DNA of 56,681 bases. It comes from Richelia sp. SL_2_1 (GTDB lineage Bacteria; Cyanobacteriota; Cyanobacteriia; Cyanobacteriales; Nostocaceae). Of the stretch, positions 6,465-37,105 are shown piece after piece. The first letter of the stretch is position 1; every line of letters begins with the position of its first letter. The stretch spans positions 1 to 56,681 of the forward strand of contig JAAUSO010000025.1 in assembly GCA_012033205.1 (NCBI GenBank), written 5' to 3'. The translations under genes were made by a program, and so were the position numbers. A model generated the notes under the pieces. The model had not been told where the DNA came from. It saw only the letters and a list, made by a program, of their open reading frames with translations, and searched no databases.

Positions 6465-6485
6465 AGACGTTGCATTGCAACGTCT
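6465..6485. repeat. GAGACGT-type palindrome (core TGCA-T-TGCA)
   Basis: AGACGTTGCA-T-TGCAACGTCT is a perfect 21-bp inverted repeat followed by CTACA. It is a member of the palindrome family seen at eight other places in this window, and lies directly after the minisatellite, downstream of both convergent genes. Confidence 0.85.
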
Positions 6486-6507
6486 CTACATGATGAAATT
6501 AAAAAAA

Positions 6508-7484
6508 CTAAATTTGATGTTCTTTGAGAAAACTTTCTATTTGCGAAGCTGTGGGTTGGGAAGCGATGGCACCTGGTTTAAGTGTAGTTAAAGCTCCCGC
6601 AGCACAAGCATAAGCGATAATTTTTTGGCAATCTCTGGGTTGTTTAAATTTTGTACACCATAATCTAACAATTGATGAACAAAGCCTGCGACAAAACTAT
6701 CCCCTGCACCAGTTGTGTCAACTACGGGTACAGAAAAAGCGGGGAATTTATCTTCGTTTTCACCCAAACAATAAGCACAGCCTTTGTCTCCATCTGTGAC
6801 TAATACCCCTTCCACAGAATTGAGACGATAAGTAATTGCCCCAGCATCATGAGTATCAAATAATAATTCTGCCTCTTCCTTAGCGAGTTTGAGAAAATCG
6901 ACTTTTTTAATTAATTCGCGAATTTGAACGGGAGCAGCATCAGGATTAGTCCAGAATACCGAGCGCCAGTTAACATCGAGCAAAATCTTCACATCGTATT
7001 GGGAAGCTAATTCCAAAGCGCGGTGAACTGCTGCACCACTATCGGGATAAGCTAATTCTAAAGTTCCTAAAACCAAAAAATCAGCCCCGGCAAATAATTT
7101 TTCCGGTAATTCCCCAGCCTTGAGACGAGTGTCAGCAAATTCGGTGGTGTCATAATCCTTGAATCCGGCAAAAACGCGATCGCCATTTTGTTTCCGCACT
7201 ACTAAAACTTGACGAGTCGGTGCTTGGGGATGACGCTGTACCCCGGTTGTATCTACACCAATTTCCTCTAAAAGCGCTTGTAAGTTGTTTCCAGCTTCGT
7301 CTTCACCGACTACACCGATAAATGCTGAGGGTGTTCCTAACTTTACTAAACCACAAGCAACATTAGCAGGCGCACCTCCCGGATAAGCAGTCCACGACTC
7401 CACCTCAGAAGGCGATCGCCCTAACTGGTCAGCAAGCATATCGTATAATATTTCACCCAAACATAAAACACGGGGATTGCTCAT
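6508..7484 (-). pseudogene. PfkB-family fructokinase, frameshifted near the C-terminus
   Basis: Ribokinase-family sugar kinase, most like bacterial fructokinases: N-terminal LCLGEILYDML, the sugar-binding YPGGAPANVACGLVKLG (35-50) and the catalytic/anion-hole motif TTGAGDSFVAGF (257-268, catalytic Asp 262). The open frame from ATG 7484 closes at 6588 after 298 residues with an unrelated tail. Inserting one A into the coding run at 6621-6626 (T6 on the plus strand) restores a normal end (IIAYACAAGALTTLKPGAIA...), including the conserved A-A-G-A-L-T-T adenine-site segment, to a stop at 6508 and 325 residues. So the gene is either damaged or mis-sequenced by one base. It would phosphorylate fructose with ATP. 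It stands alone, convergent with gluconokinase. Confidence 0.85.
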
Positions 7485-7826
7485 TTCATTTGATTTTTAA
7501 AGTTAAATTCTGCCTAAAACCTACAATAATATTTACCATTCATTTGGCAATCGTTCATACAATTAAACAGCAAAATTCATTCATAATTGTGTTCTATTGC
7601 TCTTGTCCCAAATGTTTTTAAGGGCGATCGCGTTATTTTTATTTATTATATGTAGTTAAAATAAATACTTATATAAAATACTGTATCGCGGTCTACCTAA
7701 AACATAAAGAAAATATAGACAATCGTATTGCATTAAACACTTGAAACGCCTACCTTTCATACAATCTTCTACAATGGGAAAGAGCAATTAAGTACATTTA
7801 CCACTAATCGGGAGGATGAATTTAAA
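7485..7826. other. Divergent intergenic region upstream of fructokinase and LuxR-type gene
   Basis: AT-rich, with one HIP1 site near 7623 and no coding frame. It must hold the promoters for both divergent genes. A clear GGGAGG Shine-Dalgarno lies near 7810, before the LuxR-type gene. No operator-like palindrome stands out. Confidence 0.4.
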
Positions 7827-8090
7827 ATGGCTGGTGGCGAGTCTCAGACCCCTGTTAGTCTGTCAGACCGAGAACTGCAAATTATCGACTTAGTGGCCAC
7901 TGGCTTAACTAACCAACAAATTGCAGTCAAACTAGAAATAAGTAAGCGTACTGTTGATAACCATATCAGCAATGTTCTTACAAAAACCGGAACTGAAAAC
8001 CGAGTAGCTCTTGTCCGTTGGGCTTTGCACTGGGGTAAGGTCTGTTTAAATGATGTTAATTGCTGTCCTATTCCTCCTCGGAAAGATTAA
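7827..8090 (+). CDS. Small LuxR/NarL-type HTH protein
   Basis: 87-residue stand-alone DNA-binding protein made up almost only of the GerE/LuxR helix-turn-helix domain (about residues 10-70): LSDRELQIIDLVATGLTNQQIA, then ISKRTVDNHISNVLTKTG, the recognition helix. There is no receiver or ligand domain, so activity is not controlled by phosphorylation of the same chain; such short GerE proteins are common in filamentous cyanobacteria. The C-terminal 20 residues contain two adjacent Cys (NCCPIPP). A GGGAGG ribosome-binding site supports the ATG at 7827. Its transcript may run into the long stem-loop and terminator downstream. Confidence 0.85.
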   Translation: MAGGESQTPVSLSDRELQIIDLVATGLTNQQIAVKLEISKRTVDNHISNVLTKTGTENRVALVRWALHWGKVCLNDVNCCPIPPRKD

Positions 8091-8121
8091 ACAGCATTAC
8101 AAACGGTTATTTGTCAGTCTT

Positions 8122-8241
8122 GATTGATTGCTGCTAGTTGTTCTCCTCACGCTTCACTTATTTATGGTTGTTTTTTCCTTGACGCGCAGTAATTACAGGG
8201 TATTGGTCTACTACGCGCTCTATTGCTAGCAGCAATCAATC
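8122..8241. repeat. Long inverted repeat, 16-bp perfect arms
   Basis: GATTGATTGCTGCTAG (8122-8137) is perfectly complementary to CTAGCAGCAATCAATC (8226-8241), enclosing 88 nt. The right arm abuts the terminator hairpin at 8242. Placed about 30 nt after the LuxR-type stop, it could fold as a structured 3' UTR or a processed small RNA. Confidence 0.7.
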
Positions 8242-8282
8242 CCCGTCCGACTAGCAACGGACGGGTACACTTTCATTTTTTT
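8242..8282 (+). terminator. Strong hairpin before T-rich tract
   Basis: CCCGTCCG (8242-8249) pairs perfectly with CGGACGGG (8258-8265) around an 8-nt loop. T-rich sequence starts about ten bases later. Likely the transcription terminator of the LuxR-type gene or of an RNA that includes the inverted repeat before it. Confidence 0.6.
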
Positions 8283-8563
8283 ATTTATTTATTTATTTAT
8301 TTATGCTTAAAGCCGTTCAAGTTAATCGCTATTAAAAAACTCAAATTTTTGATAACTAAGTAGTCAAGTCTTCATTATTTATATAATTACCACTCAGTTA
8401 TAAAACTATTCCCAATTCCCAATTCCCTCTTCCCTATCTAAATTTAAAATTTCTTGAAAATAAATTTAATAATCAACAAAAATTAGTAATAATTCCTTTT
8501 GCTGCTTGCTACATTGATAGTGGAATACATTTTGCCCGCTTCAGGTGGGGGAGCAATGTTGGG

Positions 8564-9214
8564 ATGAATACTTCAACTTTTGCCAAAGATAGCGACAATT
8601 CCTTTGATTTTTTGAATTTGGATTTAATTTCACCCTCTCCCACACAAGATGAGGATTTACTCGCTCGGTTATCCTTTATTCCTGGGCTAAAAGAAATTTT
8701 GATGTTGCGTCAGGTTCACGCTTTAGAACACGCTACGGTATGGATTTTAAGCGAATCCTATTCAGCATTAACTCCCCAAGTCAGCCGTGAAAATATTGGT
8801 ATCGATAATCAGCTTCACACTGGCTTATCTACAGAATCGGGATTTTTTCTTTATGGTGAAGTCAACATCAGCAATTTGCGACGGGCTGTAAATATTGCTC
8901 TCCAAAGACTCACCACTGGAGAATGGGATTTAGCCGTACATCCTCGCTGCGGTACAAATGCATCAGTCGCAATGTTATTAACAGCAGGATTAGCTATGGG
9001 AATGCATTTATTATTACCACGAGGACCAATTGAACAATTAATTGGTTTGGGTTTAGCCACAACAACCGCAACTGAACTAACTCCCGATGTCGGTGCTTTT
9101 TTTCAACGTTATATTACCACTGCAATTCCTTTTAACCTCGGAATTGAAAATATTACCCAGCAATATGATGCAATGGGACGTAAAGCTTATTTTGTCAAAG
9201 TTAAGTGGAAATAG
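8564..9214 (+). CDS. DUF6391-like membrane protein
   Basis: 216-residue protein resembling the cyanobacterial DUF6391 family, of unknown function. The conserved-looking block is GLKEILMLRQVHALEHATVW (about residues 42-61), with a HALEHA motif that might bind metal or cofactor, then AVHPRCGTNASVA (about 125-137). After this come one or two hydrophobic helices (MLLTAGLAMGMHLLLP and a Gly/Leu/Ala-rich stretch). The N-terminal 35 residues are polar and probably disordered. ATG at 8564 follows a G-rich region. The gene is monocistronic by spacing: tandem repeats follow immediately after the stop. Confidence 0.65.
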   Translation: MNTSTFAKDSDNSFDFLNLDLISPSPTQDEDLLARLSFIPGLKEILMLRQVHALEHATVWILSESYSALTPQVSRENIGIDNQLHTGLSTESGFFLYGEVNISNLRRAVNIALQRLTTGEWDLAVHPRCGTNASVAMLLTAGLAMGMHLLLPRGPIEQLIGLGLATTTATELTPDVGAFFQRYITTAIPFNLGIENITQQYDAMGRKAYFVKVKWK

Positions 9215-9334
9215 AGGTTAGAGGTTAAAGGTTAGAGGTTAAAGGTTAGAGGTTAAAGGTTAAAGGTCAAAGGTTAAAGGTTAGAGGTTAAAGGTTAAAA
9301 TTCATAACTCATAACTCATAACTCATAACTCCTC
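9212..9334. repeat. Heptamer repeats (AGGTTAA/AGGTTAG, then ATAACTC)
   Basis: About twelve units of GGTTAAA/GGTTAGA start right at the stop codon of the preceding gene and are followed by five units of ATAACTC. Same class as the other heptamer arrays in the window. Confidence 0.9.
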
Positions 9335-9490
9335 ACTTGTCCCCTTGTCTCCTTGTCTCCTATCTCAAGTAGTATTCATGACTACAAAAAATAACCATTT
9401 TAATGATGTTTTTTAAATCGAAGGAAAGATGAAGCTAACTCTTCTGTTGGTGACACTAGGGGAGGAATTTAATTAGGAAAAAACATCATT

Positions 9491-10063
9491 ATGGCAGCGA
9501 CATTTACTGACACTCAACGTCAAGCGATCGCAATGAAGTTAGCAGACATGAAAGTGCTGCAAAACCAGATGATTGCTAGCGAACAGAAGTTAATCTCGGC
9601 TATCAGCGATGGGGAAATTACAAAGCGTCTCCAAGATATGCTCAAGGATGACCAAGAAAGTTTAGGAACTATTGAAGCGGCGATCGCTAAATTTGGTACT
9701 TCATCTGAACCTCAAGAGAAAGTAAAGAGTTTTGCTCAAACCATTGACAAAATGATGGGTGGTAGGGAATTACAACTTTATGAAAAAGCATTGCAGCATG
9801 AAGGAATGAAGCATCAGTTAGTCATGACTGGTATGCTGGTACACAAGTGCGCTCAAGCTGCTGGTGGAGATTGGCAAGAAGCAATTGACCCCATCAACAA
9901 AGTTAATTTCAAAAATCGCGCTCACCAAGAACAATTAAAAGCAATTATTTACGCTTTGGGTACTCGCGAATTAGTTGGTAAAGAACCCGATACCAGCGTT
10001 TGGGCTGCTGTTGAAGATGGAATTGCTGCTGCTAAAGGTTTGTTTAGCGGTCTTACTAGTTAG
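9491..10063 (+). CDS. Hypothetical helical-bundle protein (hemerythrin/ferritin-like appearance)
   Basis: 190-residue, almost entirely helical protein without signal peptide or membrane segments. Several His and Glu residues are spaced as in helical metal-binding bundles: YEKALQHEGMKHQLV (about 97-111), LVHKCAQA (about 117-124) and RAHQEQLKAIIYALGTREL (about 143-161). This suggests, without proof, a hemerythrin-like or ferritin-like fold. I do not recognise a named family with certainty. A strong AGGGGAGG-like Shine-Dalgarno region lies near 9460 and a second purine stretch directly before the ATG. The gene is monocistronic; palindromic repeats follow it. Confidence 0.6.
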   Translation: MAATFTDTQRQAIAMKLADMKVLQNQMIASEQKLISAISDGEITKRLQDMLKDDQESLGTIEAAIAKFGTSSEPQEKVKSFAQTIDKMMGGRELQLYEKALQHEGMKHQLVMTGMLVHKCAQAAGGDWQEAIDPINKVNFKNRAHQEQLKAIIYALGTRELVGKEPDTSVWAAVEDGIAAAKGLFSGLTS

Positions 10064-10097
10064 TGTTAGTGTATTTCAATCATGAGGATCGATTGTA

Positions 10098-10119
10098 GAG
10101 ACGTTATACATAACGTCTC
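10098..10119. repeat. GAGACGT-type palindrome (core TATACATA)
   Basis: GAGACGTTAT-AC-ATAACGTCTC, perfect 10-bp arms, preceded by TGTA. In this copy the TGTA side lies to the left, so the element is in the opposite orientation to most others. Confidence 0.9.
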
Positions 10120-10184
10120 CCAAGTCTAGGGAAAAACCAACCTACGTACCTAGCACATTTTTGATGGTTACTTCCAAATCCAGG

Positions 10185-10207
10185 GAGACGTAGCAGTGCT
10201 ACGTCTC
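10185..10207. repeat. GAGACGT-type palindrome (core TAGCAGTGCTA)
   Basis: GAGACGTAGCA-G-TGCTACGTCTC with perfect 11-bp arms, followed by TACATTATTTA. It lies 66 bp from the previous palindrome, with its TACA end on the other side, so the two face each other head to head. Confidence 0.9.
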
Positions 10208-10237
10208 TACATTATTTATTTTTTACTCAACAAATTA

Positions 10238-11986
10238 CTATGATTTCAATTGAAATTCATCAAATTTAACTACTTTATCCCCAGGTTTAGTAGTATCAAA
10301 ATAATAACTACTAATTTCTCCGTTCCCTGTATCTAAAATACTAAATACGGTAATTTCATTACTTGCAATATAAGGTATCGGTTTACCATTTTCACCAGTT
10401 AATGGTTTAATTGATGGTATTATTGGTTCTAAACCATTTGGGTCACCGACTTCAATATATTTCTCTTTCAATCCTTGGGGAATATTACGTTTTTTATCTC
10501 CTAAAAAACCACCGTAAGTATTACCAACATTTGATGATTCTAAAAAGTTTATTCCCGATTCACTACGAAAACGATTCCATAAATGGGAATGTCCGTAAAA
10601 TACTAATTGCACATTATTTTCTTCTAATAAAGGTACAACATCCCGAATTAAATAATCTTCTTCAAGAGGATATTCGTAACTAATAGCTGTTATTTTACCG
10701 TTATCATTTTTTTCAATTGTTTGTACTGGATTTGTATAAGCCGGAACAATATTATCTCCTAAAGAATGAACCGGATGATGTAACATGACTATTTTGTATT
10801 TTGCTTGTTGAAATTCCTCACTATTAAGTTCTTCAACTAACCAATTATATTGAGCGCTACCTTTATCGATTGGTTCAAAAATATGTTGTCCGTAACCCCA
10901 ATTTTCTGGATTATTAAAATCAGCTGCTCTTTCGCGATATTTACCTTTGGCATCCGGTTCTAAACTCGGAACTCGCCAAATATTTGTAGCATAAAGTGAC
11001 ACTAATCTTACATCACCAAAAGTTGTTGCATAATACTTTTCTCCCCCAGTTTTACTTTCAGGTAAACTGAAAATTTCTTCATAGGTATCACTATTAAAAG
11101 AATTAGCCGACAAAGATGATTCACCATAAAAATTTTTAGCAACAGCACGGGGAATTGTATCGTTATATTCACCACCCAAACTATCACTCTTTCCTCTTCT
11201 TCCCATCACTTCATGATTACCGAGGGCGGTAAAAATAGGAGCATTTTGAATAATTTCACCGCCAATATAAGTTGTTTTCACTCCATTAGTATCTATTTCA
11301 TAATTAGCTCTACCTTGTAAAGCCGGGAAAAATGCTGCACCACGATTATCATCAAACCATTCACTGGCTCTATCTGGTATGTTAACTAAATCCCCAGCCA
11401 TGAATACTCCATCAATATCGCCGACTGTTTCTTTTACTTTTTGTAAATTTACCGCTGTCATTGGTTTAAGCTGATGATCGGAAGTTAAGAGAATTTTTAA
11501 CGGTTTACCCGGTTGAGGTGCAGATGTCAGTTGATAAACTTTACTCATTGCATCCCCCCCATTTTCAGGTTTACTAATTACTTGATAATCGACTTTTGTA
11601 CCCGCAGTTAAACCTGTAATCTCTGCTTCATGTCTCCAAATATCGCGGTTAACTGGTTGTTGATACACTTGTTTATCTTTAGTTTGATTTCCAACTTTGG
11701 ATTGTTGATCTTCCCTAGTATGACTTAATTTAATGGTTGTAGCTTCGCTAGTTTGTTTGAGATTTTCACCATAAGCAACGGTATTTTTCTCTCCAGGAAA
11801 CTCGGTAAACCACACTACTTTGACGGAATTTTCGGTTGGTAATTGTAAAAAAGGCTCTGTTAACAGCGATGAAGCTTCAGCAACGGGTTGTGAATCGGGT
11901 AAGCAACCGTATATTAAAGTTAGGCACAAAACACATAGAAATACAGATGCTAATGGTATCGGATGGTTTCTGAAACGTTTAAACAT
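10238..11986 (-). CDS. Lipoprotein metallophosphoesterase (purple-acid-phosphatase-like)
   Basis: 582-residue calcineurin-like phosphoesterase with an N-terminal signal ending in the lipobox LIYGC (Cys 28), so it is probably anchored in the periplasm or outer face. Residues about 40-155 form a fibronectin-like purple acid phosphatase N-domain. The metal motifs follow in order: SDHQ (169-172), GD (198-199), GNHE (256-259), HH (403-404) and GHSH (465-468), giving a complete dinuclear site. The first motif reads D-H rather than D-x-H, so its metal ligands would be arranged slightly differently. Natural substrates may be phosphomonoesters or diesters; a role in phosphate scavenging is inference. 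ATG at 11986. Two palindromic repeats lie just beyond its stop. Confidence 0.88.
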   Translation of the reverse strand: MFKRFRNHPIPLASVFLCVLCLTLIYGCLPDSQPVAEASSLLTEPFLQLPTENSVKVVWFTEFPGEKNTVAYGENLKQTSEATTIKLSHTREDQQSKVGNQTKDKQVYQQPVNRDIWRHEAEITGLTAGTKVDYQVISKPENGGDAMSKVYQLTSAPQPGKPLKILLTSDHQLKPMTAVNLQKVKETVGDIDGVFMAGDLVNIPDRASEWFDDNRGAAFFPALQGRANYEIDTNGVKTTYIGGEIIQNAPIFTALGNHEVMGRRGKSDSLGGEYNDTIPRAVAKNFYGESSLSANSFNSDTYEEIFSLPESKTGGEKYYATTFGDVRLVSLYATNIWRVPSLEPDAKGKYRERAADFNNPENWGYGQHIFEPIDKGSAQYNWLVEELNSEEFQQAKYKIVMLHHPVHSLGDNIVPAYTNPVQTIEKNDNGKITAISYEYPLEEDYLIRDVVPLLEENNVQLVFYGHSHLWNRFRSESGINFLESSNVGNTYGGFLGDKKRNIPQGLKEKYIEVGDPNGLEPIIPSIKPLTGENGKPIPYIASNEITVFSILDTGNGEISSYYFDTTKPGDKVVKFDEFQLKS

Positions 11987-12474
11987 GATTAATTTCTATT
12001 TATTTATCTTTATTTCTGTAGAAACAATCAACTGATAATTGTTTCTCACAAATGTAGTCTATACGACAAAAATTATTTTGAAATTCTTATCGCAATTATT
12101 CAAAGTCGCTGCAATGTTGTTTTATGTGTAGCAAAAAATACTCAGTTTTTGCAAAAGCTAATTTCTGATATTCGTAGTTTAGTTTGATTCGTTTGAAGTT
12201 TGCGATCGCAACAACAAATCAAATCGGAGGCTTTCAGAGTCTAAATATAAATATAAATAAAATATAAATGTCTTGTTTAATACTTGTGCTTTCCATTGAT
12301 TTAACTATGATGTTTAGTATTCGGAGGGCTAAACTAGTTCGCAACTCCCAGTATTGGAGTTAATCAGAGGACAGTAGAGGGTAGAAGTTAGAGAAGATTA
12401 AAGCTGAATATTTGCTCGTTGTATCAATCTGATATTTAACCGTTGTAAAACTAAAGTATTAAGGATATAAATCT
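11987..12474. other. Divergent intergenic region
   Basis: It separates two divergent genes and so must hold both promoters. It contains one HIP1 site near 12203, an ATAAATATAAAT run near 12245-12270, and no credible coding frame or strong hairpin. Confidence 0.4.
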
Positions 12475-14322
12475 ATGAACGGAAGTATTAATAAGGTAGA
12501 GTGGGTACAGCAATTAGCTGGAACATTTGCTGATTCCGGCTTTGGTATTGCTGCTGATGAGTCAGGTAACAGTTACATCACGGGATTATTCCAACTTAAC
12601 GCCAGCTTTGGTAGCACAACCCTTAGCACCATTCTTAATGATGGTTTTGTTGCCAAGCTAGACAGGAATGGTAACGTCTTATGGGCAGAGAGTTTTAACA
12701 GTACATCTAAATCTAAATCTATTAGTTGGGGCTTCGGTATTGACAGCGATAAAGTCGGCAACACTTACACTACAGGATTTTTCTCCGGCAATGTAGAATT
12801 TGGCAATAACAGCCTTACTAGTGTGGGTGATTCTGATGTTTTCGTCACCAAGCTTGATAGTAACGGTAATGTCATCTGGGCAGAGCAGTTGGAAAATACA
12901 GCTCTAGGGGTAGACATTGGCATTGGTGTTAGCAGCGATGATTTGGGTAATGCTTATGTCATAGGAATCAAAGATGCTGATACAGAGACTGACATATTCG
13001 ATATATCTGAAGACTCATCTTCTGTTGAAGGTGAAGGATTCATATCCAAACTTGACAGTAGTGGTAACTTAGTTTGGACTCAAAATTTTGATAGTACATC
13101 ATTGAGTTCAGGCACGGATGTTGCTACTGATAAAGTAGGTAATAGTTATGTTATTGGAACCTTTTTGAGTGATGTAACTCTGGGAAATCAGACTCTCTTG
13201 AGTTCTGGAAATACAGACATTTTCCTAACTAAACTCGATATTGATGGGAATATAGAGTGGAGTCAAAACTTAGGTGGTACCTTGTCTGATACAGGTAATA
13301 GTATTAGCTTGGATTCAGCAGGTAATATTTACGTTACAGGAAGCTTTGAAGATACAGTCAGCTTCGGCGATACTACCCTTACTAGCAATGGTGAAAGCGA
13401 TGCCTTTATCGCCAAGCTTGATAATAATGGCAACATAGTCTGGGCGCAAAGTTTTGGAGGTACACTATTAGACTTTGGAAATAAGCTTAGCGTTGATGAT
13501 AAAGACAATATTTACTTCACGGGAAGCTTTGAAGATACAGTTAGCTTTGGTGACACCACCTTTACCAGCAGCAGTGAAAACGATAGCTTTATCCTCAAAC
13601 TCGATACTGACGGTAATATCTTACAAGCTGAGCAATTGGGTTACTCATTGCTAGATATAGCTGCTAGTAATGCAGGAAATATATATGGCACTGGAGCATT
13701 TGAAAATACTGTAACCTTTGGTGACACTACCCTTACTAGTCAAGGATTGATAGATGGTTTTGTTGTTAATCTTGCTTTAAATGAAACACCTGTAGCTAAT
13801 GATGAACCCAATGTCAATCCAAATCTCATCTTCCCTACAGATATCAATGGAACTACAGTTGAAGCGATTGACTTAACTGGTTTCGCTACCGATAAAGTCA
13901 CTGTCGATTACACCATCAGCAGAGAGGCTGACTTCAACAATCAAATTTACTTCTACAAAGTTGATGATATTACTGGTAGTGTTGGTGGTGTCGCAGTTGG
14001 AGAGAGCGGTTATTTACAAGCTGCTTTGAACAATCTGATTTCTCCTGTATTCTCTACTCAGGATGACAAGACAGAAAGCGGAAGCGTTGAGATTGAGGCT
14101 GGCTCTATAGTAGTTCCTCTAATTATTGCTGATGGTGATTTAACTCAAGCCCTCAACGGTACCGCAGAAGTTTACTTCTCATACTTGGGTGCTAATACTA
14201 ATAATGATAATTTCGACCACATTAAGTTGTTGGATAGCAACACTTTCGGTTTTGAAGATTTACCCAACGGTGGTGACAAAGATTTTAACGATATTGTAAT
14301 CAAGATTGACAGTATTGTTTAA
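12475..14322 (+). CDS. SBBP-repeat beta-propeller protein with C-terminal DUF4114
   Basis: 615-residue protein. Residues about 5-435 are built from roughly eight repeats of about 50 residues, each with D-x-x-G-N-x-Y-x-T-G then FG-x-T-x-L and D-x-F-(V/I)-(A/T)-K-L-D-x-x-G-N-(V/I)-x-W, the SBBP seven-bladed-propeller type. Residues about 450-615 match DUF4114, ending in the characteristic F-G-F-E-D-L-P-N-G-G-D-x-D-F-N-D-I-V. There is no N-terminal signal peptide; DUF4114 proteins of cyanobacteria are often large calcium-binding proteins exported by type I secretion with a C-terminal signal, so export by this route is inferred. Two adjacent repeats (about 285-330 and 335-380) are nearly identical, indicating a recent duplication. 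Probably a surface or matrix protein. Confidence 0.85.
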   Translation: MNGSINKVEWVQQLAGTFADSGFGIAADESGNSYITGLFQLNASFGSTTLSTILNDGFVAKLDRNGNVLWAESFNSTSKSKSISWGFGIDSDKVGNTYTTGFFSGNVEFGNNSLTSVGDSDVFVTKLDSNGNVIWAEQLENTALGVDIGIGVSSDDLGNAYVIGIKDADTETDIFDISEDSSSVEGEGFISKLDSSGNLVWTQNFDSTSLSSGTDVATDKVGNSYVIGTFLSDVTLGNQTLLSSGNTDIFLTKLDIDGNIEWSQNLGGTLSDTGNSISLDSAGNIYVTGSFEDTVSFGDTTLTSNGESDAFIAKLDNNGNIVWAQSFGGTLLDFGNKLSVDDKDNIYFTGSFEDTVSFGDTTFTSSSENDSFILKLDTDGNILQAEQLGYSLLDIAASNAGNIYGTGAFENTVTFGDTTLTSQGLIDGFVVNLALNETPVANDEPNVNPNLIFPTDINGTTVEAIDLTGFATDKVTVDYTISREADFNNQIYFYKVDDITGSVGGVAVGESGYLQAALNNLISPVFSTQDDKTESGSVEIEAGSIVVPLIIADGDLTQALNGTAEVYFSYLGANTNNDNFDHIKLLDSNTFGFEDLPNGGDKDFNDIVIKIDSIV

Positions 14323-14355
14323 TTGGCATTGCTAACTTCAACTGAAATTTTTGTA

Positions 14356-14378
14356 GAGACGTAGCACTGCTACGTCTC
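14356..14378. repeat. GAGACGT-type palindrome (core TAGCACTGCTA)
   Basis: GAGACGTAGCA-C-TGCTACGTCTC with perfect 11-bp arms, preceded by TTGTA, 33 bp after the stop of the DUF4114 gene. Same core as 10185 apart from the central base, in opposite orientation. Confidence 0.9.
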
Positions 14379-14479
14379 CATCAATATGAAATCATCACTT
14401 CACTATTCGATGATGCTATTTTTGTATTGATCGTGCGTTTGATTAATTTTGAATGGTTCGTTTTCCCAGGAAATTTCGG

Positions 14480-14501
14480 GAGACGTTATATATAACGTCT
14501 C
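14480..14501. repeat. GAGACGT-type palindrome (core TATATATA)
   Basis: GAGACGTTATATATAACGTCTC, a perfect 22-bp palindrome followed by TACAA. With the copy at 14356 it forms a head-to-head pair between convergent genes, the same arrangement as at 10098/10185. Confidence 0.9.
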
Positions 14502-14532
14502 TACAACCTATCAGAATTAATGCAATCAACTG

Positions 14533-15730: not shown

Positions 15731-15863
15731 GTACTCCTAACTCCTAACTCCTAACTCCTAACTCTTAACTCCTAACTCCTAACTCCTAACTCTTAACTCC
15801 TAACTCTTAACTCCTAACTCTTAACTCCTAACTCCTAACTCTTAACTCTTAACTCCTAACTCC
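15731..15863. repeat. Heptamer repeat (T)AACTCC(T), about 18 units
   Basis: The longest array in the window: about 18 units of ACTCCTA with interspersed ACTCTTA variants. It ends five bases before the stop codon of chlP. Its units are the reverse complement of those at 15419, so the two arrays face each other and could pair across about 270 nt. Confidence 0.93.
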
Positions 15864-15867
15864 TTTC

Positions 15868-24294: not shown

Positions 24295-24356
24295 TTGTAG
24301 AGACGGGGCGTATTGCTACGTCTGTACCGGAGTTAGGAGTTAGGAGTGAGGAGTTA
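24295..24356. repeat. Degenerate GAGACG palindrome plus heptamer repeats
   Basis: TGTAGAGACGGGGCG followed by GCTACGTCTGTA looks like a decayed copy of the GAGACGT palindrome family. It is followed by four units of GGAGTTA/GGAGTGA. Confidence 0.6.
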
Positions 24357-26063: not shown

Positions 26064-26211
26064 AAAATAGCGGATACTTATAAAGCCTACCTGTATGAGC
26101 TACACAAATTTTAGCTTACGAAAGTGGGCTTTGTTCTTATAGCACCAGATGAATAGTCTGAGAGCTAATTAATTTGACCAAATAATATTTTATAACTGCC
26201 AACTCCCGTAC

Positions 26212-26232
26212 AGACGTAGCAATGCTACGTCT
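26212..26232. repeat. GAGACGT-type palindrome (core TAGCAATGCTA)
   Basis: AGACGTAGCA-A-TGCTACGTCT, perfect 10-bp arms, followed by CTACAAC; same core as the copies at 10185 and 14356 apart from the central base. Confidence 0.9.
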
Positions 26233-26264
26233 CTACAACAACTCCGGTGGTACTAACTCCTAAC

Positions 26265-28380: not shown

Positions 28381-28419
28381 TAATTTTTATCAGCTAAAAA
28401 CCATCCTTGTCATATATTA

Positions 28420-28840: not shown

Positions 28841-28843
28841 AAT

Positions 28844-30754: not shown

Positions 30755-30852
30755 GGGAATAGGGAATAGGCAATAGGTAATGGGGAATGGGAAATGGGCA
30801 AAAAGAAGAATTTCGGTAAAAGCTTAATCTAAAATCTAAAATCTAAAATCCA
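30755..30852. repeat. Heptamer repeats GGGAATA/GGTAATG and AATCTAA
   Basis: Units of GGGAATA, GGCAATA, GGTAATG, GGGAATG and then three units of AATCTAA fill the divergent gap just upstream of the ferredoxin start codon, in the place of a conventional ribosome-binding site. Confidence 0.8.
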
Positions 30853-30854
30853 AA

Positions 30855-31259
30855 ATGAAAAAACGAGTTACCATTACCTTTCCCAAACGTACAGTTCAAA
30901 TGCCTGTTACCTACCGATTGGCGAAGGATTTTAATGTTGCTGCCAATATTATCCGCGCTGCTGTTGCCCCCAATCAAATTGGTAAACTAGTTGTGGAATT
31001 ATCTGGAGATATTGACCAATTGGATGCAGCGATAGAATGGATGCGAAACCAGAGTATCACTGTTTCCCACAGTTTAGGAGAAATTGTCATTGATGAACAA
31101 GCCTGTGTTCATTGCGGATTGTGTACTGGGGTTTGTCCGACACAAGCACTTACTCTTAATCCCCAAAGCTTTAAGCTCTACTTTACTCGTTCTCGCTGCA
31201 TTGTTTGTGAACAGTGTATTCCTACTTGTCCAGTGAATGCGATTTCTACCAATTTATAA
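30855..31259 (+). CDS. NIL-domain 2x[4Fe-4S] ferredoxin
   Basis: 134-residue protein: an N-terminal NIL domain (about residues 1-75), the small alpha/beta module otherwise found at the end of methionine ABC-transporter ATPases where it senses amino acid, fused to a bacterial-type double-cluster ferredoxin. Cluster ligands are Cys 84, 87, 90 and 94, then Cys 115, 118, 121 and 125, both C-x2-C-x2-C-x3-C-P. Proteins of this layout occur throughout cyanobacteria and methanogens, with proposed roles in sulfur or homocysteine metabolism. ATG at 30855; monocistronic by spacing. Confidence 0.92.
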   Translation: MKKRVTITFPKRTVQMPVTYRLAKDFNVAANIIRAAVAPNQIGKLVVELSGDIDQLDAAIEWMRNQSITVSHSLGEIVIDEQACVHCGLCTGVCPTQALTLNPQSFKLYFTRSRCIVCEQCIPTCPVNAISTNL

Positions 31260-31645
31260 TTGATAATTAGCTCGGTGTTGAAATGTAAAAAAATACTCAG
31301 TCAGCTTTATGGTTGGGAGCATCCCAACTTTCTCAAAACCAAACAAAAGCTTTTGTTAAATCTCAGCGCCACTTTGCGTAATCCTCTGCGCTACTTTGCG
31401 TTTAATTTGCCTAATAAAGCAAAATCAAACATTTGACATACTCAGAATCAGAATAGTATTTAAATACATCACTCAATAAAAGTTTAATATCAATAATTTA
31501 ATTATTCCATTAACAATATTATAAAATAATCTTTCTTAAGACTGATATTAAATAAAAAAATATCAAGGATGTTACATATACTCAAAACCGATGCTAGGAT
31601 TCAATAATCTTCCAAGAACACACTAGTATTATCGTTTGAATTGTT
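31260..31645. other. Gap between ferredoxin and CHAD genes
   Basis: Contains a dispersed-repeat-like stretch near 31359-31406 with CACTTTGCGT-type units repeated (GCGCCACTTTGCGTAATC and GCGCTACTTTGCGTTTAATT), akin to the CTGCGG segment in the broken kinase. Otherwise AT-rich with no ORF. Confidence 0.45.
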
Positions 31646-32593
31646 ATGACATTAGCGACAAAACCTACAGTACAAACTTTAGCTGACTACACTTACAGTG
31701 CCATTGAAAAACACTTTAAGAAAACTTGGAAATGGGAAAAATCCGTAAAAAATGACCAAGATGTGGAAGCTTTACACCAAATGCGAGTTGGTATGCGTCG
31801 TTTACGTACTACTGTAACTAGGTTTAATTCTATCGTCAATTTCCCTAAATCGGCGAACGATAAAAACATTGGCAAAATTGCCCGCTGTCTTGGTTCGTTA
31901 AGAGATTTGGATGTGTTAAAAGAAACTTTCAAAACGACATATCAACCGCAATTACCCAAAAAAGAAAAGGTAATTTTAGATGATGTTATTGACACATTGG
32001 ATAAACAACGTGCAGATGCAGCAATCGATGTTAAGACATTATTTAAAAGCGAACGTTACAAGTCGTTGAAAACCGGATTAAAAGAGTGGTTGGAGAAGCC
32101 AAGTTATCAACTATTAGCGAATTTAACACTCGAACAAGCTTTACCGGATTTACTTTTACCGGAAGTTAGTTGCTTTTTTCTACATCCGGGTTGGTTAATT
32201 GGAACTCAAGTAGAAGACAATAGAGTTGTGATTTCTAGAAATTTTGATGAGAAACAAGTAGATAAACAATTGTTAACAAAAGGAGAAGACCTACACGATT
32301 TACGTAAATCTGGGAAAAAGCTGCGCTATCAGATGGAATTGTTTACCGATTTATATGGTCAAGGATATGCAAATCATCTAGAACAAGTCAAAAATATTCA
32401 AGAAGTTTTGGGTTCTATGCAAGATAGCGCTGTTTTGGATGAATGGTTACAAGATGTGTTAGAATCAAAAATTAGTAAGGAACTTCCGACTCTAGCAAGT
32501 TTACTCACCAAAATCGTTACGATTTATGGCAACAATGGCAATGTTTACAGGAAGAATATCTTAAACTTGAGACAAGACTTGAATTTCATTTAA
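31646..32593 (+). CDS. CHAD domain-containing protein
   Basis: 315-residue all-helical CHAD domain protein (conserved histidine alpha-helical domain), a family that binds inorganic polyphosphate through conserved basic residues. The diagnostic N-terminal motif is VEALHQMRVGMRRLRTTVTRF (about residues 42-62). The matching second-half motif is DLHDLRKSGKKLRYQMELF near residue 217, followed by a LEQVKNIQEVLGSMQD helix. No fused CYTH triphosphatase domain is present. A link to polyphosphate granules is inferred from the family. ATG at 31646; no near neighbour in the same direction. Confidence 0.9.
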   Translation: MTLATKPTVQTLADYTYSAIEKHFKKTWKWEKSVKNDQDVEALHQMRVGMRRLRTTVTRFNSIVNFPKSANDKNIGKIARCLGSLRDLDVLKETFKTTYQPQLPKKEKVILDDVIDTLDKQRADAAIDVKTLFKSERYKSLKTGLKEWLEKPSYQLLANLTLEQALPDLLLPEVSCFFLHPGWLIGTQVEDNRVVISRNFDEKQVDKQLLTKGEDLHDLRKSGKKLRYQMELFTDLYGQGYANHLEQVKNIQEVLGSMQDSAVLDEWLQDVLESKISKELPTLASLLTKIVTIYGNNGNVYRKNILNLRQDLNFI

Positions 32594-32753
32594 TAATTCT
32601 TAACCCTGATATGAAACGGGAATGGGGAGATAGGGAAGCAGCAGCACAAACTGAAGAAAAAGTTTTGATCGAGAATAATTGATTCGCTCTACGTGATCTG
32701 ACAGTTATCGGCGTGGATTTCCATCACGGTTCACTTTAATGAAATAAAAGTCA

Positions 32754-32790
32754 TTAAAACCCCCTCCTAGTCATGGAACGGGGTTTTTAA
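32754..32790 (-). terminator. Bidirectional-type terminator after tRNA-His
   Basis: TTAAAACCCC and GGGGTTTTTAA are complementary apart from one unpaired T, around a 15-nt loop. The hairpin lies 27 bp beyond the 3' end of the minus-strand tRNA and could also end transcription from the plus-strand CHAD gene. Confidence 0.7.
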
Positions 32791-32816
32791 GTGTTATTGA
32801 TTGAGCTTGCAAAAAG

Positions 32817-32890
32817 GGCGACCGATGGGGTTCGAACCCACGAATGGAGGTACCACAAACCTCTGCCTTAACCACTTGGCTACGATCGCC
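32817..32890 (-). tRNA. trnH: tRNA-His (anticodon GTG)
   Basis: Read on the minus strand the 74 nt fold as a complete cloverleaf. The acceptor stem has eight pairs, including the extra G(-1):C73 pair that is the identity element of histidine tRNA. The D-arm is AGCC...GGC and the anticodon stem GAGGT/ACCTC holds loop TTGTGGT, giving anticodon GTG. The T-arm is GTGGG-TTCGAAC-CCCAT. CCA is not encoded. A terminator hairpin follows downstream. Confidence 0.97.
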
Positions 32891-33018
32891 ATGTTCATTT
32901 TTTTATCTTCTTAGATACTATAACAAATTTAGAATGAATTGATCAAGCATTTTTTTGGAACGGACTCAGATAATCTAGAGTCTAATAGTCAAATAGTTAA
33001 TAATTATATCAGGAGAGA

Positions 33019-33399
33019 ATGAAAATTGTAAGTATTGTTACATATGCCGGAGTCGCTGCACTAATCGCATTAGGTGTAGTAATGGCAAGTACAAATCCAT
33101 CACGAACCGAGTATGAAGAATACGCTGCTCAGCGGTTAAATGAGTATATAAAAGAAGAAGGCTGTAGTAAAACTCCGAAGCTATTAGATAATTTAATCAA
33201 ATTCAACTGTGCAAAGTTGATCGATTCATTGAATCCACAAATTAAGCAGATAATTAATGCATCTACCCAACAACGTGATTATTTACTATTTAGCGTTTAC
33301 GAGACAGATTTACAAATAAACTCTCTTATACCTTCATACAAATTCGAGACTATAGGGGCTTTAGATAATTTCTTTACTTATAAAGCGGAAAAACAATAA
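33019..33399 (+). CDS. DUF4359 family protein
   Basis: 126-residue protein of the cyanobacterial DUF4359 family, function unknown. An N-terminal hydrophobic helix (VSIVTYAGVAALIALGVVMA, residues 4-23) followed directly by STNPSRTEYEEYAAQRL is characteristic: a membrane-anchored protein with an extracytoplasmic helical domain. Two Cys residues (KEEGCSK and KFNCAKL, about residues 49 and 64) could form a disulfide. The Shine-Dalgarno CAGGAGAG directly before ATG 33019 supports the start. Confidence 0.85.
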   Translation: MKIVSIVTYAGVAALIALGVVMASTNPSRTEYEEYAAQRLNEYIKEEGCSKTPKLLDNLIKFNCAKLIDSLNPQIKQIINASTQQRDYLLFSVYETDLQINSLIPSYKFETIGALDNFFTYKAEKQ

Positions 33400-33444
33400 T
33401 TGTAAATCCTGGTTAATTTGTAGATGTGGAAACATTATCCACAG

Positions 33445-33466
33445 GAGACGTAAAATTTTACGTCTC
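33445..33466. repeat. GAGACGT-type palindrome (core TAAAATTTTA)
   Basis: GAGACGTAAAATTTTACGTCTC, a perfect 22-bp palindrome followed by TACATTATTTA. It overlaps the 3' end of the minus-strand PLP-enzyme gene, whose stop codon at 33458 is in the palindrome. Confidence 0.93.
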
Positions 33467-34396
33467 TACATTATTTAATCGCAATAGTTCCCCAAACCGT
33501 TGATTAAATCCAGCAATCCCCTGCAAACCACCCGTGTGGATTACCACAATTGTACTACCATTTTGAAATCTACCTTTTTTGATTTCATTCCATACCCCAT
33601 AAAATAGTTTTCCAGTATAAATAGGGTCAATTGGGATACGAAATTTTTCGTAAAAATCGTTAATAAAATTTATTAATTGATGATTCCATTTTGTATAACC
33701 ACCAAAATCATAATCACTGATTAACTGCCAATTATCGTACTTTTTTCCCACAGATTCCCATATCAAACGATTAATTTCATCCTTAATAAAATCACCCTTG
33801 AGTGCCGGGAAAACTTTTAAAACAGACATTCGGGCTAAACCCGTGACTAAACCCGCAGCAGTACCACCAGTACCGCAACTCACACAAAAATAATCTGGTA
33901 ATTTGCCGTCTAGTTGTTCCCTTACCTCTGTAACTATTTCGGCACAACCTTTAACCGCTAAAGCATTGCTTCCACCTTCAGGTATTACATAACATTCTCC
34001 TAACTCCAGTTGTAACCGTGCTGCTAATTCTGCTTTCTCTGCTCGATATGCTTGTCTATCAACAGATATCAACCGCATCCCCTGTTGTTGAGCTAAAAAT
34101 AAAGTTGGATTTAACGGTTTGATTAATTCTCCTCGAATCACACCAAACGTCTCAAAACCAAACATTTTACCAGCTGCTGCCGTTGCTGCAATATGATTAG
34201 AATAAGCACCACCAAAAGTGAGTAAGCGTGTTTGTTGTTGCTCTTGTGCTGTTTGCAGATTGTATTTTAATTTCCGCCATTTATTACCAGAAACTTGTGG
34301 ATGAATTAAATCATCCCGTTTGATAAATAAACGTATTCCGTGCTTTACTAATAGTTCATCTTGAATCAATTGTAGTGGACTTGGTTGATTGAACAT
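33458..34396 (-). CDS. ACC deaminase/D-cysteine desulfhydrase-like PLP enzyme
   Basis: 312-residue fold-type II PLP enzyme. The Schiff-base lysine is probably Lys 39 in QVSGNKWRKLKYN. LTFGGAYSNHIAATAAAG (about 58-75) carries the Asn/His of the substrate site, IPEGGSNALAVKGCAEI is the family signature, and VSCGTGGTAAGLVTG (about 173-187) is the phosphate-binding loop. It would cleave ACC to alpha-ketobutyrate and ammonia, or D-cysteine to pyruvate, sulfide and ammonia; the two cannot be told apart here. The last five residues (NNVET) and the TAA stop are encoded by an interspersed palindrome, so the native C-terminus has been replaced. Confidence 0.88.
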   Translation of the reverse strand: MFNQPSPLQLIQDELLVKHGIRLFIKRDDLIHPQVSGNKWRKLKYNLQTAQEQQQTRLLTFGGAYSNHIAATAAAGKMFGFETFGVIRGELIKPLNPTLFLAQQQGMRLISVDRQAYRAEKAELAARLQLELGECYVIPEGGSNALAVKGCAEIVTEVREQLDGKLPDYFCVSCGTGGTAAGLVTGLARMSVLKVFPALKGDFIKDEINRLIWESVGKKYDNWQLISDYDFGGYTKWNHQLINFINDFYEKFRIPIDPIYTGKLFYGVWNEIKKGRFQNGSTIVVIHTGGLQGIAGFNQRFGELLRLNNVET

Positions 34397-34430
34397 GATT
34401 TTATCAACAGCATTTATTGCAGCACAAAGG

Positions 34431-34574
34431 TCAAAGGTTTAAGGTCAAAGGTTTAAGGTCAAAGGTTTAAGGTCAAAACTCCTAACTCTTAACTCATAAC
34501 TCTTAACTCTTAACTCCTAACTCCTAACTCCTAACTCCTAACTCCTAACTCCTAACTCCTAACTCCTAACTCTT
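34431..34574. repeat. Heptamer repeats reaching the murJ stop codon
   Basis: About six units of GGTCAAA/GGTTTAA, then about thirteen of ACTCCTA/ACTCTTA. The murJ stop (TAG on the minus strand, 34566-34568) and the preceding Ser codon lie within the units, so the array runs into the gene. Confidence 0.93.
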
Positions 34575-36191
34575 AAAAAACTTCTGTCGCAAACGACTAA
34601 CAAAAAGATTCACTTCCGGTAACTTCATCATCGAAGCAACAACCCCGAAAATTGCTAATCCCACAAAACCAGATATTGATAATTGTAAAAGCTCAATTAA
34701 CAAATTTCCCGAACTGAAAAACTGTTCCATAGCTTGAGAAGTTGCATAACTAGCAACACCAGCTACCACACTACCTGCGGCTAAACCTAATATTGGTAAA
34801 CCCCATTCCACAAGAGGTAAACCATTTAATTTAACGTTGAGTAGGAATAACAACATTAATATTGAACTGCAATTAACTCCAACTGTTGCTAATACTAAAC
34901 CCGGTGCGCCTAAATCAAAAACTCTAATAAATATAAAGTCTAATAAAGCATTGAGAAAAATGTTGATCATACTGATGCGAAATGGTGTATCTCCATCACC
35001 CAAAGCGTAAAATACTCGCACCAAAACATCTCGTCCTAAATAGACAAACATCCCGATACCGTTAACAATTAATAAAGAAGCAACCAAGGCTGAATTTTCG
35101 GCATTAAAAGCACCGCGTTGATAGACTATCTTCACAATTGGATTTGCTAAAGCCACCATTAAAGCACCCAAAGGTAGCATTGTAAAAGCTGAAAGCAACA
35201 ATCCTTGACGGATGCGTAATTTTAAATCTCCCCAATTTTGTGGATCTGCCAATCGAGCAAACATCGGTAATAAAGGAACCAGAATTACTCCAGAAATAAT
35301 TCCCAAAGGAGTTTGTACTAACAATCCAGCATTAGCTAAAGCCGGTGCAACCTCAGTACTAATAAATGAAGCGAAAAATAAATCGGTGTAAAGGTTAATT
35401 TGTAGCATCCCAGAAGAAAAAGTTGCAGGGCCCATAATTTTCAGGATTTCCTTTACTCCCGGTTGATTAAAATCGAATCTCAAGCGAATTCTACCCATAC
35501 CGGCTTTAGTTTGCGCTGCTAACTGCACAAACCACTGTAAAAGCGCTCCCCCTAAAGTTCCCCCTGCTAAGACAGTTCCCCCTAACATCGCGTATTCTGG
35601 GGTACTAATTTTAGTACCAACTTGTAGGTAAAGAATACCCACAGCAATCACAACCGCAACACTGGAAAACAACGGACTAATTGAAGGTAGCCAAAACACA
35701 TTAGCAGCATTCAGAACACCGAAACCAATACCAATTAAACCTGCTAAAACCGCCATTGGAGCCATTACTCGCAATTGACGAATCGCAATTTCTCGAACTA
35801 GTTCCTTTCCCGGCTCCTGTAATCCAGGTGCAAAAATATCAATACATAGAGGTGCAGCTAATACCAAAACAATTGAGACAGCAATCAGTATTCCACCAAT
35901 CAGCGTCATAATCGTTTCTACCAACGGTGCTGCCTCTTCCTTTTCACGTTTAGCTAAAACACTAACCACTGCACTGTAAAAAGGACCATTAATACCACCT
36001 AGTAATATCAGTAAAAACCCAGGTATCGTATAAGCGTATTGAAAACCCGCAAAAGCAGGACCCAAGCCAAAAGCAGCAGACATAACTAACTGTCGTACCA
36101 AACCAAAAACTTTGCTAATTAAAGTGGCAACGGCTACAATACCAGCAATACCAGCAAACGAACGAGACGGTTTATCCTGTTGTTTCGTCAC
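34566..36191 (-). CDS. murJ: Lipid II flippase MurJ
   Basis: Polytopic membrane protein of the MOP/MviN family that flips lipid II to the periplasmic side for peptidoglycan and septum synthesis. About 541 residues with roughly 14 hydrophobic helices; the N-terminal block AGIAGIVAVATLISKVFGLVRQ and YAYTIPGFLLILLGGINGPF match cyanobacterial MurJ. The first in-frame start is a TTG at 36215, but the GTG at 36191, giving (M)TKQQDKPSRSFAG, agrees better with how homologs begin and has GGGT upstream. The last codon and the stop are formed by a heptamer repeat. Confidence 0.9.
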   Translation of the reverse strand: MTKQQDKPSRSFAGIAGIVAVATLISKVFGLVRQLVMSAAFGLGPAFAGFQYAYTIPGFLLILLGGINGPFYSAVVSVLAKREKEEAAPLVETIMTLIGGILIAVSIVLVLAAPLCIDIFAPGLQEPGKELVREIAIRQLRVMAPMAVLAGLIGIGFGVLNAANVFWLPSISPLFSSVAVVIAVGILYLQVGTKISTPEYAMLGGTVLAGGTLGGALLQWFVQLAAQTKAGMGRIRLRFDFNQPGVKEILKIMGPATFSSGMLQINLYTDLFFASFISTEVAPALANAGLLVQTPLGIISGVILVPLLPMFARLADPQNWGDLKLRIRQGLLLSAFTMLPLGALMVALANPIVKIVYQRGAFNAENSALVASLLIVNGIGMFVYLGRDVLVRVFYALGDGDTPFRISMINIFLNALLDFIFIRVFDLGAPGLVLATVGVNCSSILMLLFLLNVKLNGLPLVEWGLPILGLAAGSVVAGVASYATSQAMEQFFSSGNLLIELLQLSISGFVGLAIFGVVASMMKLPEVNLFVSRLRQKFFKS

Positions 36192-36279
36192 AAATAGTAC
36201 CCGAATACTCTCCAAGGTCAGATATCTGAAAATATTTAACCTGAATTTGGGTTATATGTCAGGTAAATTTTGACAAATA

Positions 36280-36394
36280 AAGTTAAAGGTTAAAGGTTAA
36301 AGGTTAAAGGTTAAAGGTTAAAGGTCAAAGGTCAATTTTTAGTAATAACCATCAACCAACAACTATCAACTGTCCACTGTCAACTGTCAACTGT
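36280..36394. repeat. Heptamer repeats AAAGGTT and AACTGTC
   Basis: About six units of TTAAAGG/TCAAAGG (36280-36331), then about four units of AACTGTC/CACTGTC (36366-36394), between pentapeptide gene and murJ, both minus-strand. Confidence 0.9.
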
Positions 36395-36401
36395 CTCCCC
36401 A

Positions 36402-36884
36402 TCAACGACATCCAAGACTATACCGCGTGGAAACCCCGGTAACTGGATTTACTCCCGAAGCGCGATCGCACATCAATTTCACTTGATAGCGGTCAATAAT
36501 GGCATCGGTAAAATCGGCACCAGTAATATCCGCATCAAAAAAGCGACTGCGGCTCATGGTTGCTTCTGTAAAGTTAGCATTTCTCAAGTTAGCATTATCC
36601 ATTGTTACTTGGTCTACCAAGGCTCCTTTTAAATTCGCACCTTCTAAATTGGCTCTAAGTAAATTCCCTTTGGTAAACATCGCGTTTGTTAAATTGGCAC
36701 CTTGAAAATTTGTCTCTCGCATTTCAGCAGCAATAAAATTGACTCCTACTAAATCTTTATTGGAGAAATCACGGTTTTCTAAATTTGTACTGCTGTAATT
36801 AATTGTGTTTATTTGCGCGAAAGCAGGATGAGCATCAAGTAATACCCATAACCACGCTAAACACAAAACGAAAACTAAACCCAA
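36402..36884 (-). CDS. Exported pentapeptide-repeat protein
   Basis: About 160 residues with an N-terminal signal sequence ([22 protein letters not shown]) and about 12 pentapeptide repeats A(D/N)LXX between residues 35 and 130 ([20 protein letters not shown] and on), which form a right-handed quadrilateral beta-helix. A C-terminal tail with two Cys (KLMCDRAS and SLGCR) may make a disulfide in the lumen or periplasm. The open frame begins only with a TTG at 36884; residues further upstream (KKILLRLL) look natural but lack an ATG/GTG before a stop, and a low-complexity T/A tract lies right there. The true start may be damaged. Confidence 0.8.
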
Positions 36885-36900
36885 TAAACGTAAAAGAATT

Positions 36901-36962
36901 TTTTTCTATAATTTTAAAATTTTTTAAAATTTTTTAAATTTTTTAAAACTTTTAAAATTTTA
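36901..36962. repeat. Low-complexity TTAAAATTTTTTAAAA tract
   Basis: Five irregular units of TTTTTTAAAA/TTTTAAAA directly upstream of the pentapeptide gene, made only of A and T apart from two C. It covers the region where its start codon and promoter should be. Confidence 0.85.
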
Positions 36963-37049
36963 GGGAGTAGTTTGTTCGGGAGTAGAGAAATTATTGGCGT
37001 TGCTCAAAAGATGTATGAAAATAATTTTGCGTGATTTTGAAAACCTTGG

Positions 37050-37105
37050 GAGACGTGTTAGCAAAGCGTGACGCGATAGCGTCATAGGGCATTGTATCAC
37101 GTCTC
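37050..37105. repeat. GAGACGT-type palindrome with nested second hairpin
   Basis: Outer arms GAGACGTG (37050-37057) and CACGTCTC (37098-37105), followed by TACATTATTTA as in other copies. Inside is a second perfect hairpin TGACGC-GATA-GCGTCA (37069-37084). It appears to be a long-form member of the palindrome family. Confidence 0.85.

Follow-up and report, generated by a model that had tools for sequence, protein, structure and literature searches.

GTAG-footed palindromes in Richelia sp. SL_2_1, their likely RAYT partner and the change of their cores at orthologous sites

A stretch of 56,681 nucleotides from the cyanobacterium Richelia sp. SL_2_1 (contig JAAUSO010000025.1, positions 1 to 56,681; hereafter the window) contains short palindromes that share the ends GAGACGT and ACGTCTC, with cores that differ from copy to copy while staying self-complementary. 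How does such a family spread, and how do its two halves remain matched when the core changes? Repetitive extragenic palindromic sequences (REPs) are near-perfectly palindromic despite sequence change, and the usual accounts of this are selection and transposition. We consider it very probable that the palindromes are REPs, often arranged as REPIN-like pairs (REP doublets forming hairpins), and that they spread as non-autonomous partners of a divergent REP-associated tyrosine transposase (RAYT); their arms are probably kept matched by template switching. A REP/REPIN family with its RAYT is a known kind of system and is well explained. The new part is the low divergence of the core stems and the complementary changes of the centre at orthologous sites.

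Anatomy of the palindrome family

The preliminary description of this DNA had asked for copies to be collected genome-wide. Across the assembly of 7.55 Mb in 359 contigs, GAGACGT-N(6-12)-ACGTCTC has 158 exact occurrences and its reversed control 0. With TACA added, the pattern was found in 28 of the 41 genomes searched (own, genus, family and order), other families included. Five exact palindromes lie in the window, at 10098, 10185, 14356, 14480 and 33445, against a shuffling expectation of 0, and the lone arm GAGACGT is present 18 times where 2.8 are expected. Relative to shuffles, folding of the nine hairpins in the window gives z values from -3.5 to -6.4. A palindrome of 20-40 bp in many copies is what a RAYT-associated REP or REPIN should be, and this is what we observe. 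At gathering scores, Rfam reported only a tRNA in the window.

The family has an orientation, as had been proposed. Among 60 copies sampled from the genome for intact arms, TAC/GTA stands beside the stem in 59 (one side in 47, both in 12, neither in 1). The foot on the tailed strand reads TGTAG, i.e., the GTAG tag of REPs, and the family thus has the kind of foot (GTAG/GGAG) expected of a REP. In single-tailed copies, for which TAC was the sorting criterion, the fourth tail base is A in 46/47 and the next is T in 29/47; the one-sided TACA(TTATT) tail described earlier therefore stands as TAC(A) but not as TACATTATT. The untailed side often has GG (G at -1 in 33/47, at -2 in 22/47). Seven pairs of copies lie less than 400 nt apart, six of them inverted with tails outward and with spacers of 65-185 nt, as expected of REPINs, and the seventh consisting of two double-footed hairpins. 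Two REPIN-like pairs fall within the window. The inverted arrangement of 10098/10185 and 14356/14480 is an addition to the earlier account, and partner cores are often unlike (TTATA with TAGCA).

The cores form a few discrete types and no continuum. In 56 exact copies of the genome, 22 have TAGCA.TGCTA, 17 TTGCA.TGCAA, 10 TTATA types and 7 others, and the core pairs Watson-Crick at 222 of 225 positions, which bears out the earlier remark that cores differ yet stay palindromic. Covariation, a check proposed at the same time, is also evident: across 82 distinct cores from all loci examined, which are interrelated copies and not an independent sample, 78.5% of positions pair (267/340), compared with a mean of 42.7% and a maximum of 52.1% for shuffled halves.

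The copies of the window are the following (strands as annotated; G001 and G002 are relatives).

6464-6490, minus strand: REP hairpin AAGACGTTGCATTGCAACGTCTC with TACA tail, core TTGCATTGCAA; the same hairpin occupies the orthologous site in both G001 and G002.
10094-10119, plus strand: REP hairpin with TGTA tail at left (GTAG foot on the plus strand), core TTATACATAA; identical in G002.
10185-10211, minus strand: REP hairpin with TACA tail at right, core TAGCAGTGCTA; the G002 orthologue has TAGCACTGCTA, the centre complemented.
10094-10211, no strand: REPIN-like inverted pair of the two preceding hairpins, tails outward, cores TTATA and TAGCA, 65 nt between hairpins; the orthologous interval in G001 has other sequence and no such hairpin.
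14352-14378, plus strand: REP hairpin with TGTA tail at left, core TAGCACTGCTA; identical in G001.
14480-14505, minus strand: REP hairpin with TACA tail at right, core TTATATATAA; identical in G001.
14352-14505, no strand: second REPIN-like inverted pair, hairpins 101 nt apart.
24296-24327, plus strand: REP-like variant TGTAGAGACGGGGCGTATTGCTACGTCTGTAC with imperfect stem, beside heptamer repeats; present in G002, absent from the orthologous place in G001.
26208-26237, minus strand: double-footed REP GTACAGACGTAGCAATGCTACGTCTCTACA; G001 and G002 have no hairpin of this kind in their orthologous intervals.
33445-33470, minus strand: REP hairpin with TACA tail, core TAAAATTTTA; hairpin identical in G001 and G002.
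37050-37109, minus strand: REP hairpin GAGACGTG...CACGTCTC with TACA tail and a replaced loop; intact paralogue in L012.

The claim that the copies keep their GAGACGT...ACGTCTC ends holds for the five exact ones, but less strictly for those at 6465 and 26212, where the first arm is off by one base (AAGACGT in 6464-6486, CAGACGT in 26211-26233), and for that at 37050, where some 40 nt (about 37058-37097) of another small hairpin-forming sequence take the place of the loop. The paralogue of the 37050 copy, L012, has similar flanks and the intact core GAGACGTGATATATCACGTCTC. The copy at 24295 had been taken for a decayed one. It is instead a variant in its own right, GAGACGGGGCGTATTGCTACGTCT, with exact copies in SL_2_1 (38), G002 (64), G001 (12) and G007 (2) and none in the remaining 17 of the 21 genomes searched.

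Several side observations concern the same elements. The small hairpin-forming repeat of the 37050 loop, which starts TTAGC..AGC, also sits in a REP loop in L179 (about 4839-4867), and in L117 (about 5529-5560) it forms a clean 32-nt insertion, relative to G002, beside heptamer repeats. Seven double-footed copies (L001, L009, L111, L122, L131, L134 and L136) have TTATATATAA-type cores, one of them TTACATATAA, and share a longer flank, CTAGTAGTC..ACGTCG, which makes them part of a larger repeat.

A divergent RAYT as likely partner

The likely mobiliser is a divergent RAYT that, judged by its motifs, would belong to TnpA-REP subclass 2.4. In SL_2_1 this gene (L167) has both a TAGCA and a TTGCA hairpin on either side, and these cores (TAGCA.TGCTA, TTGCA.TGCAA) are the two commonest of the sample. 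Once the four of the 56 copies that adjoin the RAYT are excluded, the remaining 52 comprise 20 TAGCA.TGCTA, 15 TTGCA.TGCAA and 17 others, i.e., 35 have one of its two cores. The gene is flanked on both sides by hairpins in G000, G001 and G002 (L167-L169), and nine of the 20 divergent RAYT loci fetched, L167 included, have a GTAGAGAC hairpin at or around the gene. The arrangement expected of a RAYT-associated REP, with one and the same REP on the flanks of the gene, is seen in L167, in L168-L169 of the relatives and in other loci.

All 17 of the 17 RAYTs aligned share the HUH (histidine-hydrophobic-histidine) histidines, WQ and the tyrosine of YI..NP without exception. L167 has PNHVHG, WQ and YIINNP, in agreement with the motifs NH[IFV]H, WQ and YIxNNP of subclass 2.4 (RAYT group 4). 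The sole PDB match is the TnpA-REP 4er8 (E 4.9e-6, across 33 profile positions). A Pfam Y1_Tnp search, which found 12 loci in SL_2_1, did not list the divergent RAYT, and plasmid records gave three distant RAYT-like matches.

Of the 30 RAYT loci first examined in SL_2_1 and relatives, L166 alone had its gene surrounded by the hairpin; in L139 a single similar hairpin lay close to the end of the locus. L166 is one of the divergent group scoring under the NCBI cut-off, and its hairpins led us to examine that class. The canonical RAYT of SL_2_1, L034 (195 bits to NF047646), was rejected as mobiliser: its surroundings hold GTAGGTTGGGTT..AACCCAAC hairpins, a different REP, and for this reason the divergent RAYT is preferred. 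The REP family of L034 (900-2500) recurs, in the same or a similar form, beside several other RAYTs of relatives. The IS200-like Y1_Tnp loci were also rejected as autonomous partners, given that no GTAGAGACG/GGGAGACG arm occurs in the 1.6-3.4 kb fetched around each of the 12, three of these matches being short fragments at contig ends or frames. The search for an autonomous relative, proposed earlier, yielded the divergent RAYT L167 as likely partner and, in the DNA fetched, none among the Y1_Tnp loci. The genes between the two REPINs of the window (one phosphoesterase-like and one apparently for an SBBP-repeat protein, with truB adjoining) were likewise dismissed as a mobile unit.

A profile built from nine divergent RAYTs gave matches (E <= 1e-12) in 205 of the 388 genomes of the order. 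We compared 84 distinct RAYT loci, 53 of them in a closer class whose border, 195 bits, was placed at a gap observed in the profile score list. In this class the hairpin occupies the HUH-Tyr interval inside the gene in 37 loci, the flanks in 39 and both in 28; the flank counts are low because the 5' window of the paired test begins above the gene and skips hairpins up to about 60 nt from the start codon. The internal core equals a flanking core in 26 of 28 loci, whereas 10,000 shuffles of the flanks gave a mean of 5.0 and a maximum of 14. With one locus per 80%-identity cluster the match is 21/23 (shuffles: mean 3.9, maximum 11). When the core of a REPtron, a RAYT gene with its linked hairpins, changes, its copies thus tend to change jointly. 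The cores include TTCCATGGAA, CGCCATGGCG, CGATTCATCG, TTGCATGCAA and AAGGCATGCCTT. RAYT-type mobilisation had been suggested from the window alone; both the hairpins at nine of 20 loci and the 26 of 28 core matches point the same way.

Two further features of RAYT genes were seen in passing. Tandem half-hairpins occur beside the gene in L166 or in frame within it in L170, L179, L186 and L208, lengthening the HUH-Tyr linker. Sister RAYTs (L177, L178, L180, L184 and L246) have other hairpins, GGGCAAGG..CCTTGCCC and GTAGGGGC..GCCCC, located 5' of the gene and in the same linker.

Change at orthologous sites and its possible causes

An orthologous region was found in at least one relative for 53 of 63 copies; the set comprises 49 sites of the SL_2_1 genome anchored in G001 and G002, plus the window copies. 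In equal-length hairpins the core stems differ at 6 of 338 positions and the flanks at 187 of 3175, about three times less for the stems, where 19.9 differences are expected at the flank rate (P 2e-4). The arms differ at 5 of 432 positions, but they had been preselected as intact, and therefore only the comparison of core with flank is fair.

In the filtered orthologues the unpaired centre is the same in 17, the complement in 5 and another base in 3, one of these being a core switch at L112:4746. Beyond the filter, complements with good flanks on both sides occur at L110:2225 (G002) and L121:4498 (G001), and centre changes in genus orthologues are thus to the complement in 7 of 9, with 2 other. 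The same holds for 3 of 5 changes in the REPtron trio L167-L169 and for 3 of 3 clean changes between Plectonema radiosum and Tolypothrix brevis. Between L228 and L230, GGT has become ACC, its exact reverse complement, with unchanged neighbours. Pooled, 14 of 18 centre changes are to the complement (P 3.9e-5 at the flank share of 0.30, from 56 complements in 187 flank differences; P 0.0013 at an assumed 0.40). The preliminary description had left open whether paired core changes reflect selection for a hairpin or a copying process that rebuilds the arms; the pairing is supported, and the flips favour copying.

The hairpins might instead be maintained by selection because the RNA or DNA hairpin serves the host (as a transcription end, as protection of mRNA 3' ends or as a protein site), with ordinary compensatory mutations and no special copying; this would account for the conservation of the core stems at their sites. 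The copies of the window are located between the listed open reading frames (ORFs) of the main genes, with a single overlap of 9 bases between the hairpin at 33445-33470 and the 3' end of the ORF at 33458-34396, and published REPs are mostly downstream of genes according to PMC3733652. Selection on pairing, however, predicts neither an unpaired centre biased towards the complement nor a three-base flip, nor does it predict cores that match the local RAYT, and we regard this explanation as rather doubtful.

Hairpins are also exchanged for other copies. The orthologue of L112:4746 has TAGCACTGCTA in place of TTGCAATGCAA, one flank being preserved, and in G002 the orthologues of L013 and L117 have the 24295-type variant and not TAGCAATGCTA. 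It is nevertheless unlikely, and somewhat more so than host function, that gene conversion, recombination among copies or re-insertion accounts for the changes in general, with cores swapped as blocks: random centres would then be expected, 14 complements in 18 are improbable even at the assumed 0.4, and at the flips of 10185, L115 and L011 the flanks are unchanged up to the foot of the hairpin. Least probable by far is that the hairpins are the ends of a classical IS200/IS605 or other transposon, or a miniature inverted-repeat transposable element, and not REPs: REP transposases are related to IS200 transposases and the seven double-footed copies lie within a longer repeated context, yet the DNA fetched around the 12 Y1_Tnp loci lacks the arms, the A2-type RAYT has one match in the SL_2_1 genome, and no multi-copy transposase element ending in these hairpins was found among these loci.

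Low core divergence and complementary centres are both marks of template switching, and we therefore propose two processes, spread by the RAYT and upkeep in place. A number of observations weigh against this proposal. On the side of the RAYT, the hairpin is not near the gene in 11 of the 20 divergent loci first fetched, several of which have other REPs. G030 has 60-62 pattern matches, yet such a hairpin was missing from the single A2-family RAYT locus that was fetched from this genome. The cores of 17 of the 52 copies are not found beside the SL_2_1 RAYT (they may be relics of lost or unassembled RAYTs), L167 scores 53.5 bits to NCBIfam NF047646 (REP_Tyr_transpos), under the 80-bit cut-off, and the in-gene copy is missing from L167-L169. 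No transposition event was caught among the copies and orthologous sites compared. The filter on genus orthologues yielded no clean empty site for the hairpin, although other insertions were found, and many orthologous places differ via larger rearrangements. A tidy 41-nt difference between CT dinucleotides separates L009 from L283; it would fit the CT cleavage described for another TnpA-REP (PMC8266576), yet this is a single instance, either a gain or a loss. On the side of upkeep, most centres are unchanged (17 same against 8 changed), the core and flank counts (6/338 and 187/3175) come from slightly different pair sets, and flank identity near some counted flips is as low as 0.74-0.80. The tally of 14 in 18 pools four data sets with alignments scored by hand, and it omits L361 (mixed), L112:4746 (core switch), L383 (7 flank columns) and L119 in G001 (a complement with a single good flank).

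Proposed mechanism, known systems and meaning

In the two-process proposal, and by analogy with published RAYT biochemistry, the RAYT would recognise a folded single strand with a GTAG foot, cut it and rejoin it; PMC8266576 is our basis for supposing that a RAYT demands a good hairpin with this foot. Its action would spread hairpins that fold well. The core could vary freely as long as the arms match, which would give each RAYT lineage a core of its own, on the flanking and often on the in-gene copies. Template switching during replication would keep the arms matched in place, with one arm rewritten from the other so that a paired change arises in one step, and a switch from strand to strand would invert the centre of the hairpin. 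It is probably the cause of both arm matching and centre flips. We also advance, tentatively, the possibility that paired core changes come largely from template switching at the hairpin, and that the RAYT then filters new perfect palindromes, which would make flanking, in-gene and genomic copies turn over as a set.

The short dispersed repeat (SDR) elements of Nostoc, reportedly described by Elhai in 2008, are said to be dispersed repeats of 21-27 nt with compensatory changes that occur nested and in heptamer repeats; we know of no link between them and a RAYT. The GTAG-tagged cyanobacterial REPs (GTAG-12, -15 and -16) resemble the present family as PMC3733652 describes them: short palindromes with a GTAG foot, in many copies and in head-to-head dimers, occurring in Anabaena, Nostoc and Cyanothece. 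Their sub-families have complementary stem changes, as here, the comparison being by description only. The REPINs of PMC3116915, where N. punctiforme is named, consist of two inverted REPs separated by a spacer, are associated with a RAYT as here and show compensatory changes across the pair, whereas the present spacers span 65-185 nt and partner cores are often different.

Subclass 2.4 (RAYT group 4), according to PMC6006769, is abundant in cyanobacteria and shares NHxH, WQ, YIxNNP and double-foot REPs with the present system. That source describes an in-frame REP between the HuH and Tyr motifs, predominant but not universal in the subclass, which 37 of our 53 class members have and L167-L169 of this genus lack. 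It also assigns to each tnpAREP its own REP family, so double-footed REPs, in-gene REPs and family-specific REPs are already known. The test of internal against flanking cores was not found in the available text of PMC6006769. Template switching at short inverted repeats, described in PMC8604942 for yeast genes, homogenises the arms by copying one of them onto the other and may turn the spacer round. The same two marks are seen here, and the paper cites earlier work of its authors in which short inverted repeats of proteobacteria proved better conserved than the sequence around them. Our literature search, in a limited collection, found no paper that joins REPs with template switching.

Two other observations concern repeats. 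At 15733-15864 the window has a repeat, roughly 130 bases long, for which numerous copies at 88-97% identity are listed in no fewer than six of the eight genus genomes searched. The same REP as in the present family (GTAGAGACGTTCC-N3-GGAACGTCTC) occurs in metagenome bins named Chloroflexota, Rubrobacter and KSB1 (L352, L353, L358, L362, L363, L372, L376 and L378), with GC of 0.51-0.68, either because it was transferred between phyla or because contigs were misplaced.

When close orthologues are compared, centre flips offer a countable signature of a copying mechanism. Cyanobacterial REPtrons, with their linked hairpin copies 5' of the gene, within it and 3' of it, are a natural test of joint change in a REP and its transposase. 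The flips and the linked turnover of cores are the parts worth following.

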